Below, one piece after another: positions 17,545-47,209 of a stretch of DNA of 53,293 nucleotides. Under the pieces are notes generated by a model. It was not told where the DNA came from and did not search any database. It was given only the letters and a program-made list of their open reading frames with translations. A program made the translations under genes and the position numbers. This stretch comes from an uncultured Verrucomicrobiota bacterium (GTDB lineage: Bacteria > Verrucomicrobiota > Kiritimatiellia > RFP12 > UBA1067). The stretch is from positions 1-53,293 of the forward strand of contig CAMAHK010000007.1 of the NCBI GenBank assembly GCA_945834475.1, in the 5' to 3' direction. Each line of letters opens with the position of its first letter. The stretch's first letter is position 1.

Positions 17545-19007
17545 GAGTGTTTCAACCTCATCCACGCCGGAAGCTTGACCTGCTTCGCCTCGCGGCTCTG
17601 GTTCGTCTCCATCGTCGAGGTCGTGCCGATCGACGGCGACTCGAGCGCGGCAAGGCGCGTCATCAGCGTCTGCTTGTTAAGGGCTTCGCGCTGACGGAGC
17701 TCCTCGGACCTCTGACGTTCCGCGAGCAGGTCCTTCTGCGTCCGCTGCAGGAGCTCGCGCAACTGCTCGGCCTCGGCGCGCAGTTGCACGATATCCTTCT
17801 GACTCTCGCCTGTCCGTGCACCTTCGGCCCGCGCCAGACGAACCTGTTCGGAGAGCTGGCGGATCTTCGACTCGCTGTCGAGCATCGCCTTCTCGTGGAC
17901 GCGCTGAAGTTCCTCGTAATCGCGCCGCAGACGCGTCGTGCGCGGATCCTCGGGACGCTCCAGAAGAGCCTTGCGGGTCATCTCCTCAACGTCGCGTCCA
18001 CTCATCTTCAGGATCTCGCGGCGGTATTCCGTCAGTTTCTCCACGCGACTCTGGTAGCGGAGGCGAGACTCCTCGAATTCAGCCTTCTCACGCTCCAGCG
18101 TCTTCAGAATGACCGACGCCTCGTCCTGTAGAATCTTGAAGACCGCGACCTGGCGGTCGGCGACCTCGCTCGCCGCCGCCGGCAGACGCTTGATCTCGTC
18201 CTCCAGCGCCACGACCTGCTCGGAGAGCTTCTCGGACCGGGCGCGTGCGTCGCGAAGCTCGACGTCCTTCGCCGAAAGCTGCGAGTCGCGGGTTGCGATC
18301 TCGGCGTCGCGGTTGGCGATGTCCGACGCGGCGGACGCGAGTTCGACCTCCTTGGACGAAAGCTGTGTCTTCAGGTCGGATGCCGAGCGAAGCGCCTCAT
18401 CGAGACGCGCCTGGAGTTCGGCGGCGTGACGGCGCTCGGCTTCGATCACGCCCTCAAGCTCGTGGACACGCGTCTCGTCGACGACAACCTTTTCGACAAT
18501 CTTCTCGACGATCTTCTCGACGGGAACTTCAACCCGGACCTCCTTCTCGACGATCTTCTCGACCGGGACCTCCACGATCTTGTCGACGAACTTCTCGACT
18601 TCGACGATCTTCTCGACCGGGATCTCAACAACCTTCTCAACCTCGACGATCTTCTCGACCGGAACCTCGACGCGAACTTCCTTCTCGACGATCTCCGGCC
18701 GCTTCTCCTCCTCGAACGGTCCACGCACCTCGACCATTGACGCGGTCGGCGGCAGACGGCCGCTCGCCATCAGGGCCTCGGCCGCAGCCTTGTTGAACGG
18801 CCCGCGCGGATTTCCGTCCCCGATGTCGATCGAGAAACGCATGTCCAGGAAAGGCACCTCTTCGACGCGTCGCCAGATCACCTCGTCATCGGAGATTTCC
18901 TGTCCCGGCTGAACGCGCCCGAGCCGCGCCCAAGCGACAAGCTGCTCTTCGGTCTCAGGGCCGAAGGTCTCGTCCTGGGTCCTCAAGAACCACTTCTTCT
19001 CACTCAT
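17541..19007 (-). CDS. GYF-domain protein with VEK repeats and a long coiled coil (GYF2)
   Basis: This 488-residue protein has two tandem GYF_2 (DUF4339-type) modules in residues about 3-95, recognisable by WFLRTQDETFGPETEEQLVAW and a second GPF motif. Residues about 105-180 are made of VEKIVEVPVEKIVEK-type repeats. A long, charged coiled coil (about 185-455) follows, then a basic tail. No signal peptide or membrane segment is seen, so it is probably cytoplasmic. It overlaps the related shorter gene upstream by ATGA, and the two are clearly paralogous in their N-terminal halves. GYF_2 modules are usually protein-interaction domains; a scaffolding role is inferred. The exact function is unknown. 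Confidence 0.85.
   Translation of the reverse strand: MSEKKWFLRTQDETFGPETEEQLVAWARLGRVQPGQEISDDEVIWRRVEEVPFLDMRFSIDIGDGNPRGPFNKAAAEALMASGRLPPTASMVEVRGPFEEEKRPEIVEKEVRVEVPVEKIVEVEKVVEIPVEKIVEVEKFVDKIVEVPVEKIVEKEVRVEVPVEKIVEKIVEKVVVDETRVHELEGVIEAERRHAAELQARLDEALRSASDLKTQLSSKEVELASAASDIANRDAEIATRDSQLSAKDVELRDARARSEKLSEQVVALEDEIKRLPAAASEVADRQVAVFKILQDEASVILKTLEREKAEFEESRLRYQSRVEKLTEYRREILKMSGRDVEEMTRKALLERPEDPRTTRLRRDYEELQRVHEKAMLDSESKIRQLSEQVRLARAEGARTGESQKDIVQLRAEAEQLRELLQRTQKDLLAERQRSEELRQREALNKQTLMTRLAALESPSIGTTSTMETNQSREAKQVKLPAWMRLKHS
18478..18695 (-). repeat. VEK-coding tandem repeat region (GYF2)
   Basis: The DNA is a mosaic of near-identical 18-24 base units encoding VEKIVE, VEKVVEIP and VEKEVRVEVP. 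The units resemble those in the upstream paralogue at 19210-19370. Such repeats are prone to length change by slippage or recombination. Confidence 0.8.
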
Positions 19008-19690
19008 CCGTGTTTTCTCCCAAAGAAGTCAGAAACATTGCCAAAGCGTCCGCTCCGCGCGAGTTCGCGTTGCGCCGCCGCTTCCAGCGCCGCCAGCTTG
19101 TTGCGGTTGAGATTGCCGAAGATGGTGCTGCCTGCGCGCGGCGGCGGCGGCATCGACGAAACCGGCTCAACGACTTCGGGAACGACAACCTCGCAACGGG
19201 CCGGAGGTTCGACTTCAACAATCTTCTCGACCTCAATGATTTTTTCAACGATCTTTTCGACCGGGACTTCAACCCGCACTTCCTTCTCGACGATCTTCTC
19301 AACGACCTTTTCAACAATCTTCTCAACGGGAACTTCGACGATCTTCTCGACAATCTTCTCGACAATCTGCGGCGGCGGATCTTCTTCGGGAGCAAACTCG
19401 TGCAGCGAATAGACCTTTGTTTCAGGCGCAGCCAAACCGTCCTTGAAAAGCTGGATGACGACCGCACGGTTAAACGGACCAAAGACCTTACCGGGCGCAG
19501 TCTCGACAAGCCACTTCATCTCCAGTTCGGGTTTTGTCTGTGCCGGCACCCAACTTCTGCGATCCTGCGAAAGAAAACTCGTCGGTTGAATGCGGCCATC
19601 CTTCGCCCAGCTAATCAACGACTGGACCGAGGCGGGACCATAAACATTCCCATCCGCAGTTTTGACATACCAATTTAGATCTTCAGCCAT
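19004..19690 (-). CDS. GYF-domain protein with VEK repeats (GYF1)
   Basis: This 228-residue protein has two GYF_2-type modules: LNWYVKTADGNVYGPASVQS at residues 5-24 and a second beginning near residue 58 (MKWLVETAPGKVFGPF). A run of VEKIVEKIVEVPVEKIVEK repeats covers about 107-160, followed by a short Pro-rich and then basic tail. It lacks the coiled coil of its neighbour. It overlaps the symporter gene by 8 bases and GYF2 by 4. The shared modules and repeats suggest that the two proteins bind each other or a common partner; function is unknown. Confidence 0.85.
   Translation of the reverse strand: MAEDLNWYVKTADGNVYGPASVQSLISWAKDGRIQPTSFLSQDRRSWVPAQTKPELEMKWLVETAPGKVFGPFNRAVVIQLFKDGLAAPETKVYSLHEFAPEEDPPPQIVEKIVEKIVEVPVEKIVEKVVEKIVEKEVRVEVPVEKIVEKIIEVEKIVEVEPPARCEVVVPEVVEPVSSMPPPPRAGSTIFGNLNRNKLAALEAAAQRELARSGRFGNVSDFFGRKHG
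19210..19370 (-). repeat. VEK-coding tandem repeat region (GYF1)
   Basis: Plus-strand TTCTCGACGATCTTCTCGAC-type units recur several times and encode alternating hydrophobic and charged VEKIVEK segments. Units are shared with the repeat region of GYF2. Confidence 0.8.
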
Positions 19691-29930: not shown

Positions 29931-30734
29931 TCAGACCTGCGGCGGCCTGGGAAGTCGTCCCTCGAGCGCATCCGCCGCAATGGCTTTCACATCCGAGTCA
30001 AAGTCGCCCTTGATGATCCACTTCAGGAAGTTCGGTTCGTTGAGCATCAGCTTCTTGAGCGGTTCGCCCTTCTTCTTGCCGAAGTTGACGCACAGAACCC
30101 CGTCCCGCCAACGGAACATGCCGTTGCGGTCGGCGTTGAGCGGATCGTGCGGCGCGATGTACTCGGCGAGCTCATGAATACCCTTGCCTTGGAGTTCGGC
30201 GTAACGTCCCTCGGTGCGCGTCAGCTGCGCCTTGAGAACGTCCAGCGTCGCCTGCGCGTCGGCGAGCGCCCCGTGTGCCCCGACATGGTCGCGGTGGCAG
30301 TAGTAGGCCACGGCTGAGGTCAGGTCGCGCGGCTCCATCTTATGGTAGATGCGCTGCACGTCGACGCGGTCGACGACCGCCGCCGAGAGATTGCGGCCGA
30401 CGCGGAGGAACTCCTCCTCAAGGCACGGGATGTCATAGCGGTCGGAGTTGAAGCCCGAGATGTCGCAGCCCTCGAAGAAGGCGTAGATCTCGTCCGCCAC
30501 CTCGGCGAACGTCGGACAGTTCGCGACCGTCGCGTCGTCGATGCCGTGAATGGCCGTCGTCTCGGGCGGAATCGGGATCGTCGGATTGAGAAGACGCTCA
30601 AGACGCTCCTCCGTGCCGTCGGGATTCACCTTCACCGCCGCGATCTCGATGATGCGGTCCTTGCGCGGGAAGAGTCCCGTGGTTTCAAGGTCGAAGACGA
30701 CGAGCGGACGTTTCAGGGCGATCGGAAAGATCAT
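29931..30734 (-). CDS. DnaQ-like 3'-5' exonuclease
   Basis: This 267-residue protein has an N-terminal DEDDh exonuclease domain. ExoI is VVFDLETTGLFP with Asp15 and Glu17; ExoII is near ISGFNSDRYDIPCLEEEF; ExoIII is HGALADAQATLDVL. It resembles the exonuclease domain of the epsilon subunit or of PolC. The C-terminal 85 residues (about 185-267) include a basic FGKKKGEPLKKL segment, as found in other stand-alone exonucleases. It overlaps the ABC permease gene by ATGA. Roles in proofreading, repair or RNA trimming are possible. Confidence 0.88.
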   Translation of the reverse strand: MIFPIALKRPLVVFDLETTGLFPRKDRIIEIAAVKVNPDGTEERLERLLNPTIPIPPETTAIHGIDDATVANCPTFAEVADEIYAFFEGCDISGFNSDRYDIPCLEEEFLRVGRNLSAAVVDRVDVQRIYHKMEPRDLTSAVAYYCHRDHVGAHGALADAQATLDVLKAQLTRTEGRYAELQGKGIHELAEYIAPHDPLNADRNGMFRWRDGVLCVNFGKKKGEPLKKLMLNEPNFLKWIIKGDFDSDVKAIAADALEGRLPRPPQV

Positions 30735-31645
30735 TTTTCACTCCTCAGTGCGGGGTCCAGACGGTCGCGGAGATAATCCGCGAGATGATTGAAGACAAGT
30801 ACGAGAATGAAGATCGCCGCAGTCGTGAAGACCATCTCCCACCAAATGCCCTGCCAGAGCCGCGTTCGCGCGTTGTTGATCATAATACCCCAGCTCGGCT
30901 CGCCCTGCACGCCGATGCCGAGGAACGAGATGAAGACCTCCGTCGAGACCGCGCTCGGGAAGCGGATCGAAAACTGGATGAGAATGACGTGCGCGACGTT
31001 GGGCAGGATGTGGCGAAACATGATCCGCGCGTCGGAGTAACCGAGCGTCTTCGCCGCCTGCACGTACGCGCGGTCGCGGTGCTTCATTGTCTCGCCGCGG
31101 ATCGTTCGGCACGTGCCGACCCACGTCGTCAGCCCGATGCCGACGATGACACCGAGGAGCCCCTTGCCGACCACCAGCGAAATCGCGAGAATGAAGAGGA
31201 GCCCCGGCATCGACGCAACCGTCGCGCAAAGCCAGATGACGAGCGAATCGATCTTGCCGCCGTAGTAGCCACCGAGAAGCCCTAGGACGACACCCAACGG
31301 AATCGCGATGAGCGAGGTCAGGATGCCGACGTAAAAGGCAATGCGCGTTCCCTGTGCGAGGCGCTCGGCGACCGAACGCCCGAGGTTGTCGGTGCCGAGG
31401 AGGTACACCGTACCGCGGTGCGTCTCGCCCGCGGCGGGTAACAGGTCTGCCGTGGAAACGCCGCGGGCGGGGACGCACCGCGGTACGGAGTCCCCCGGCG
31501 GCAAAAACCTCGCCTCCATGCAGACCTGGTTATAGCTCGGTGTCGTGTCGCGCACCTGCGCGACACGATACTGCACTTCGCCGTAGATCGCCACGGCGAA
31601 GTAGGCGGCCAGCGCCAGCAGGCAGAGCTTAACCGAAAGCTTCAT
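30731..31645 (-). CDS. Oligopeptide/dipeptide-type ABC transporter permease (OppC/DppC family)
   Basis: This 304-residue membrane protein has about six hydrophobic segments. It has the LLGTDNLGRSVAERL motif before the second segment and the cytoplasmic EAA-type loop AAKTLGYSDARIMFRHILPN. No partner permease, ATPase or binding protein is in the window, so it is an orphan component. The start at 31645 overlaps the end of cmk by 17 bases; longer frames upstream are cmk shadow. Between the first segment and the GTDNLG motif about 27 residues are encoded by a large DNA palindrome (31408-31488), which looks like an in-frame insertion in a periplasmic loop. Confidence 0.87.
   Translation of the reverse strand: MKLSVKLCLLALAAYFAVAIYGEVQYRVAQVRDTTPSYNQVCMEARFLPPGDSVPRCVPARGVSTADLLPAAGETHRGTVYLLGTDNLGRSVAERLAQGTRIAFYVGILTSLIAIPLGVVLGLLGGYYGGKIDSLVIWLCATVASMPGLLFILAISLVVGKGLLGVIVGIGLTTWVGTCRTIRGETMKHRDRAYVQAAKTLGYSDARIMFRHILPNVAHVILIQFSIRFPSAVSTEVFISFLGIGVQGEPSWGIMINNARTRLWQGIWWEMVFTTAAIFILVLVFNHLADYLRDRLDPALRSEK
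31408..31488. repeat. Large palindrome inserted in frame in the ABC permease gene
   Basis: Arm 31408-31436 pairs with arm 31459-31488; 28 of the 29-30 positions are complementary. Both share the CCGTACCGCGGTGCGTC and CGCCCGCGGCG blocks. The loop is 22 bases. The element is wholly coding and leaves the frame open, like the protein-coding palindromic elements described in Rickettsia. I see no second copy in this window. Confidence 0.85.
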
Positions 31646-32300
31646 GCACCTTTTCGAGGACCAGCGCGACGACTTCGTCGAGCGTGAGGTCGGAGGAATC
31701 GATCTCGATCGCACCGTCCGCCTTGCGAAGCGGCGCATACTTGCGCGTCGAGTCTATCGCGTCGCGCGCGAGGAGCGAGGCCTTCACCGCCTCGGCCGTC
31801 TGGTTCGCGATACCCTTCTCGACCTCTTCCTTCTGTCGCCGGCGGGCGCGCGCCTCGGCGGACGCCGTGAGGTAAAAACGCGCGGGCGAATCGGGGAAGA
31901 CCGCCGTCGTGATGTCACGTCCCTCGACGACCAGATCGCCGTACTGCGTCATGCCGCGCAGGAGGTCCGTCACCTTGTCGCGCACCGCCTTCACCGTCGC
32001 GACCTGCGAGGCGTGTGCGTTGATCTCGGGCAGGCGGATGCGCTCACCCGGCGCTTCGCCGTCCACGTAGTAGGCGATCGCCCCGTTCTCGGGACGGCAT
32101 TCGATCGTGACCGTCGGTGCGAACGCCGCGACAGCCTCGGGATCTTCGGGGTTGACATTCTTGACGAGCACCTGCCACGTCATGATGCGGTAGAGCGCGC
32201 CGGAATCGACATGCAGGAACCCGAGCGCCTTGCCGACGAGCTTGGAAACGGACGACTTGCCGGCCCCGCTGGGACCGTCAATGGCGATGACCTTAGCCAT
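31629..32300 (-). CDS. cmk: Cytidylate kinase
   Basis: This 223-residue nucleoside monophosphate kinase phosphorylates CMP and dCMP. The P-loop is GPSGAGKS (residues 9-16); VDSGALYR, the GRDITTAVFPDSPARFYLTA segment and the RDAIDSTRKYAPL lid/substrate motif are all typical. It overlaps the antiporter gene by 8 bases upstream and the permease by 17 downstream. Many bacteria have cmk next to rpsA or plsC, which is not the case here. Confidence 0.96.
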   Translation of the reverse strand: MAKVIAIDGPSGAGKSSVSKLVGKALGFLHVDSGALYRIMTWQVLVKNVNPEDPEAVAAFAPTVTIECRPENGAIAYYVDGEAPGERIRLPEINAHASQVATVKAVRDKVTDLLRGMTQYGDLVVEGRDITTAVFPDSPARFYLTASAEARARRRQKEEVEKGIANQTAEAVKASLLARDAIDSTRKYAPLRKADGAIEIDSSDLTLDEVVALVLEKVHEAFG

Positions 32301-47029: not shown

Positions 47030-47040
47030 GTCTGAAACAA

Positions 47041-47112
47041 TGACTGAATGACTGAATGACTGAATAACCGAATTGGCGAATGGGCGAATGGACGAATGGA
47101 CGAATTGGCGAA
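47041..47112. repeat. 8-base tandem repeat, nine units, upstream of the helicase gene
   Basis: The units are three copies of TGACTGAA, then TAACCGAA, TTGGCGAA, TGGGCGAA, TGGACGAA, TGGACGAA and TTGGCGAA. All share T-n-n-n-(C/T)-GAA. The array begins 12 bases upstream of the helicase start codon and so occupies its expected leader. Confidence 0.85.
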
Positions 47113-47133
47113 TTGCTCCGGCCCTTCGAAACG

Positions 47134-47197
47134 CGAATTGTCGAATACCTACGCGGCTTGCGCCTTTCGGTGATTCGACAATTCGGTGATTCGGTTA
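47134..47197. repeat. Perfect 13-bp inverted repeat with an opposite-facing 8-base array
   Basis: CGAATTGTCGAAT (47134-47146) and ATTCGACAATTCG (47173-47185) are perfect reverse complements with a 26-base loop. TTCGGTGA, TTCGACAA, TTCGGTGA and TTCGGTTA (47166-47197) form a second array whose core is the reverse complement of the first array's CGAA. The hairpin lies 24 bases after the rpsI stop and may end or stabilise that transcript. Confidence 0.8.
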
Positions 47198-47209
47198 TTT
47201 CTTCCCGAA

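Follow-up and report, generated by a model that had tools for sequence, protein, structure and literature searches.

An 81-bp palindrome inside an OppC-like permease gene is a REPIN of a mostly intragenic, in-frame repeat family with a likely RAYT transposase

Rickettsia has been known to carry protein-coding palindromes since 2000, and to our knowledge they have not been linked to any enzyme. A 53,293-nt stretch of an uncultured Verrucomicrobiota bacterium (contig CAMAHK010000007.1, here called the window) raises the question of what a long palindrome is doing in frame within a permease gene, and how it arrived there. The palindrome folds as one hairpin of 17 bp, a small bulge and 11 bp. A sequence-only reading of this DNA had described an 81-base palindrome with 28 pairs around a 22-base loop, and refolding recovered the same structure. 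Its predicted stability is −42.9 kcal/mol (z −8.5) as single-stranded DNA and −65.3 kcal/mol (z −10.1) as mRNA, and in each case 0/200 shuffled sequences were as stable.

The palindrome lies wholly inside a minus-strand ORF that has OppC/BPD-transporter family matches, in agreement with the placement given earlier, in frame between the first membrane segment and the GTDNLG motif. The stop codon of the ORF is at 30731-30733, the start at 31645 was set by homology, and the frame passes through the element as VPRCVPARGVSTADLLPAAGETHRGTV. In an AlphaFold model of the permease the insert is a low-confidence loop following the first membrane helix. The encoded residues had been said to lack a counterpart in typical family members. 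Alignment of 21 congeneric orthologues bears this out: 15/21 are without exactly 27 alignment columns between LPP and LGTDNLG, and the remaining 6/21 have short, unrelated linkers at this position. Sister species are thus without the insert, and conservation of the loop is excluded. Because these 15 orthologues are shorter by 27 columns, the net insert is the element itself, 81 nt. A 15-bp inverted repeat at 31540-31571 of the same gene covers orthologue-conserved codons and is probably due to chance. Elsewhere in the window, imperfect TCGACGATCTTCTCGAC-type repeats form a long array in coding sequence (18463-19368), and an 8-bp unit, GAATGACT shifting to GAATGGAC, is repeated in tandem (47030-47117), with an inverted counterpart nearby (47163-47199).

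Table. Positions of the permease gene, the parts of its palindrome and the RAYT genes (positions without a contig name are those of the window)
Feature	Position	Strand	Basis or remark
Host gene, OppC-like ABC permease, 304 aa	30731..31645	-	PF00528, Opp3C/Opp4C-type matches, orthologues
Upstream gene, cytidylate kinase-like (no family search), overlaps permease start	31629..32300	-	ORF list, sequence reading
Whole REPIN, 81 bp, adding a net 27 codons	31408..31488	.	Fold, family, orthologue gap
REP-like unit 1, head CCGTA and bulged stem CCGCGGtGCG-TCT-CGCCCGCGG	31408..31434	+	Structural scan, fold, covariation
Spacer between stems: tails of both units (CGGGTAACAG on +, CGTTTCCACG on -) separated by 6 nt	31435..31460	.	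Tail composition over 142 units, alignment of copies
REP-like unit 2, inverted, CCGTACCGCGGTGCGTCCCCGCCCGCGG on minus strand	31461..31488	-	Structural scan, covariance model (51.2 bits)
RAYT (REP-associated tyrosine transposase) ORF, 222 aa	C1:14092-14760		NF047646 match, fold, repeat cluster
Second RAYT of the genome (L135)	G000 C17:31622-32185		
RAYT inside type IIG restriction-methyltransferase (L129)	G038 C31:1833-5171		
RAYT inside HsdR (L130)	G040 C160		
RAYT inside PFL-like enzyme (L123)	G046 C217		

The palindrome is not unique. Search for other copies of the arm, in other reading frames, gave about 60 full or partial places in the genome by BLAST of the 81-mer and at least 155 matches with a covariance model of the arm, in several frames. 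A detailed sample of 759 kb (13 contigs plus the window, about 30% of the genome) was then scanned by structure, with a head of CCGTACC (at most one mismatch) followed by an uninterrupted or singly bulged stem. The sample holds 142 bulged hairpin units, where shuffled sequence gave 2, 3 and 4. Extrapolated to the whole genome, this is about 480 units. A chance hairpin is ruled out as the origin of the window palindrome by the shuffled folds and the many copies. Copies occur in many contigs and within conserved genes, so we judge an assembly artefact to be unlikely.

Each unit consists of C followed by C, T or A, then CCGTA and a stem of 10 versus 9 bases with one bulged base, about 39–42 nt altogether. 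The loop is TCT, TCCT or TCCC and the tail is close to CGTCTCCAAGCC. The head is exactly CCGTACC in 113/142 units. Although stem sequences are diverse, 93.9% of cells still pair, and 26 stem cells have changed on both sides compared with 9.4 in shuffles. The covariation score was reached by 0/500 shuffles, and slid controls scored far lower. The bulge is retained across units at a variable position. In the sample 20 head-to-head pairs and 102 singles were found; tail-to-tail arrangements are also present. The window palindrome is therefore a REPIN, two REP-like units head to head. At C1:99163-99372 a 39-bp unit forms an in-frame tandem array, giving a repeated LGDAAGETHRGTG in the predicted protein.

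The family is specific to one bacterial species, as far as can be said when no second genome of that species was compared. Matches to the 81-mer at 1e-6 were found in 0/60 congeneric genomes, and a search of 57 congeneric and same-order genomes yielded one weak 25-bp match. GTAG-type repeats of a sister species (G007) and of G038, tested for the same behaviour, were few or limited to one contig.

Published accounts place REPs mainly outside genes (PMC3116915, PMC3733652). The location of the copies was determined with a home-made codon-usage gene finder trained on the sample, which assigned the right frame in 98–99% of 240–300-nt windows of its own training genes. 84/109 repeat clusters (about 77%) lie within predicted genes, so an extragenic location is not a feature of this family. 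A clear same-strand frame was present on both sides of 68 clusters; 59 are in frame and 9 differ, where one third in frame would be expected (binomial p 1e-19). Random 60-nt segments of the genome were 82% genic, 52% in frame and 4.7% differing. The repeats are therefore distributed almost like coding DNA itself. Part of the in-frame excess may come from length and not from selection alone, since the unit lengths of 39, 78 and 81 bp are all divisible by three.

Hosts confirmed by NCBIfam include dxr, carB, murE, argS, tsaD, queA, uvrB, thrC, rseP, psd, pheT, rsmD, priA and dnaG, with two inserts each in queA and thrC. Comparison of 13 further host sites with up to three sister species placed the repeats in poorly conserved or length-variable loops that are shorter or unrelated in the sisters. 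At the Era site one sister loop matches the element in length and another exceeds it, so simple insertion is unproven there. Era is an example of single-unit sites at which a sister species has a loop of the element's length, and clean insertion is thus not proven everywhere. The six possible readings are used unevenly by 45 in-frame single units (20/14/6/2/2/1, p 1e-7). LGDAAGETHRGT and VPRCVxxAxG are favoured and arginine-rich readings are rare, which argues for selection on the encoded peptide.

A candidate transposase is encoded on contig C1, where ten REP units in both orientations surround a RAYT gene within 1.7 kb (expected 0.3, P ~2e-12). No comparable repeat cluster was found at the other Y1 loci examined. 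The ORF matches NCBIfam NF047646 (REP_Tyr_transpos) with E 2.6e-16 and 59.8 bits, below the equivalog cut-off of 80 bits. The IS200 model gave only 13 bits and the match to Pfam Y1_Tnp was marginal. H141 and H143, the HUH pair, and the catalytic tyrosine Y202 do not vary among twelve aligned homologues. The AlphaFold model (pLDDT 76) has as its best PDB match 4er8, a REP transposase in complex with its REP hairpin, ahead of the IS200/IS608 enzymes. A scan of genome contigs with this protein returned two distant relatives. These results suggest that the C1 RAYT is most likely the enzyme moving the repeat family; its movement of the repeats, its binding and its cutting are inferred, and no movement was observed.

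The genome encodes a second RAYT on contig C17, flanked by a different, unrelated palindrome, ACGCGACAGGAGTGTCGCGTC. This palindrome is also dispersed (44 sites in the sampled contigs), lies mostly within genes and is in frame at 19 sites versus out of frame at 1. Because the two RAYTs are flanked by different palindromes, each is paired with a repeat of its own, in the manner described for REPtrons (PMC2817692, PMC3733652). The N-terminal reading frame of the C17 RAYT passes through a 15-bp tandem repeat (ASATG).

The C1 family resembles REP/REPIN and RAYT (TnpA_REP) systems in its imperfect bulged hairpins of about 40 nt, its occurrence as singles and head-to-head pairs in hundreds of copies, its compensatory stem changes and the presence of copies, in both orientations, on the flanks of a RAYT. 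It differs from them in being mostly genic and in frame and in its head, which is CCGTAC and not the GTAG tetranucleotide, a REP feature that was tested for and is not present. The GTAG head is what studied RAYTs contact, and the C1 RAYT is only distantly similar to these. The C two bases ahead of the head is enriched (CC, CT or CA in 94/142 units), which recalls the CT/CA sites at which studied TnpA_REP enzymes cut (PMC8266576). IS200/IS605 elements (IS608, ISDra2) have in common with this system a Y1 HUH transposase fold, recognition of single-stranded DNA hairpins and the lack of target duplication; here the closest family model and structure are those of RAYT/TnpA_REP, and the repeats carry no gene. 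Intragenic REPs are already known. GTAG REPs within genes have been reported, most of them in Opitutus terrae (PMC3733652), and are likewise of RAYT type, located in ORFs singly or in pairs and encoding up to 20–30 residues. The REPs of that survey are mostly intergenic, whereas here the genic fraction of clusters is near coding density, and the head differs. What is distinctive is that the copies are mostly intragenic and in frame and that a likely transposase could be named.

The sequence-only reading had likened the palindrome to the protein-coding palindromic elements (RPEs) of Rickettsia, and the likeness has substance: hundreds of copies, other genes and frames and insert-free orthologues were found. 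RPEs have been reviewed as dispersed palindromes in frame inside housekeeping genes (PMC10969869), and the copies described here behave in the same way. If the family were of this kind, it would consist of selfish coding palindromes without a dedicated transposase, spreading by an unknown route. We consider this very unlikely. CGTC-type REPs, with which RPE-4 and RPE-6 of R. conorii have been equated, are reported to lack a dedicated transposase (PMC3733652), whereas the copies described here cluster around a RAYT gene. The CGTC head of RPE-4 and RPE-6 is absent, and the sequence differs, with the reservation that no RPE family sequences were compared. The earlier reading is accordingly refined to a REPIN-type pair of bulged hairpins with its own RAYT, which belongs to no Rickettsia RPE family and whose RPE likeness is one of behavior only. 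We class the family as a REP-like coding element associated with a RAYT.

Short palindromic terminal repeats and a high copy number would also be expected of a MITE, mobilized by cut-and-paste with target-site duplication by a DDE-type insertion sequence. Flanking direct repeats were not in excess at the ends of the 20 paired copies, the two arms are individual bulged hairpins of a kind also found alone, and the stem covariation fits recognition of a single-stranded hairpin and not of double-stranded terminal repeats. A DDE MITE was rejected for want of target-site duplication, and we consider it very unlikely. There is also little likelihood that the repeats, once mobilized by the RAYT, are now domesticated, with encoded loops or mRNA hairpins that function in the host. 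The strong bias toward two readings and toward hydrophilic loops is compatible with such a function, as is the very stable mRNA hairpin; avoidance of harm accounts for the reading bias equally well, and the host proteins are unrelated, the insertion points differ and the family is missing from all 60 sister species.

We are confident, short of certainty, that the window palindrome is a REPIN of a species-specific family most likely spread by the C1 HUH/Y1 RAYT, with in-frame copies in genes probably kept by selection. The C1 RAYT would act on single-stranded hairpin DNA, spreading units through the genome. Insertion is without target-site duplication and into coding and non-coding DNA almost alike. 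Within genes, nearly all copies seen keep the frame open, and they are placed in variable loops. Purifying selection probably removes frameshifting or badly behaved peptides, which is probably why most copies use just two of the six readings, and unit lengths close to multiples of three may contribute. In the window the insert lengthens by 27 residues the permease loop that follows the first membrane helix. That the host proteins still work is an inference.

In three other genomes of the order a RAYT gene itself lies in frame within a host ORF, flanked by in-frame palindromic repeats. For the type IIG restriction-methyltransferase of G038, both halves of the host are matched by a paralogue in the same genome and by homologues in G048, G027 and G047, all without the cassette. 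The alignments leave a query gap of about 340 residues, and the halves match nearly adjacent positions of the homologues. Because both halves are matched around the gap, the cassette is an in-frame insertion of a whole REP-RAYT-REP unit. This raises the possibility, which we offer only tentatively, that RAYT systems in this order have adapted to coding DNA, with REP units as tolerated loops that are open in nearly all readings and spread through essential genes, and with a cassette that inserts in frame and is carried there. If true, this would provide a concrete mechanism of spread for coding palindromes such as RPEs.

The genome thus contains a family that behaves like RPEs with a candidate transposase adjacent to it, and a second family with its own RAYT, while 60 sister genomes without the family serve as before-and-after controls. 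With candidate transposases and family-free sister genomes in hand, the origin of in-frame coding palindromes becomes testable. The dozens of natural insertions in essential enzymes are material for studying tolerance to added loops. These results also show that REP-type repeats need not be extragenic.
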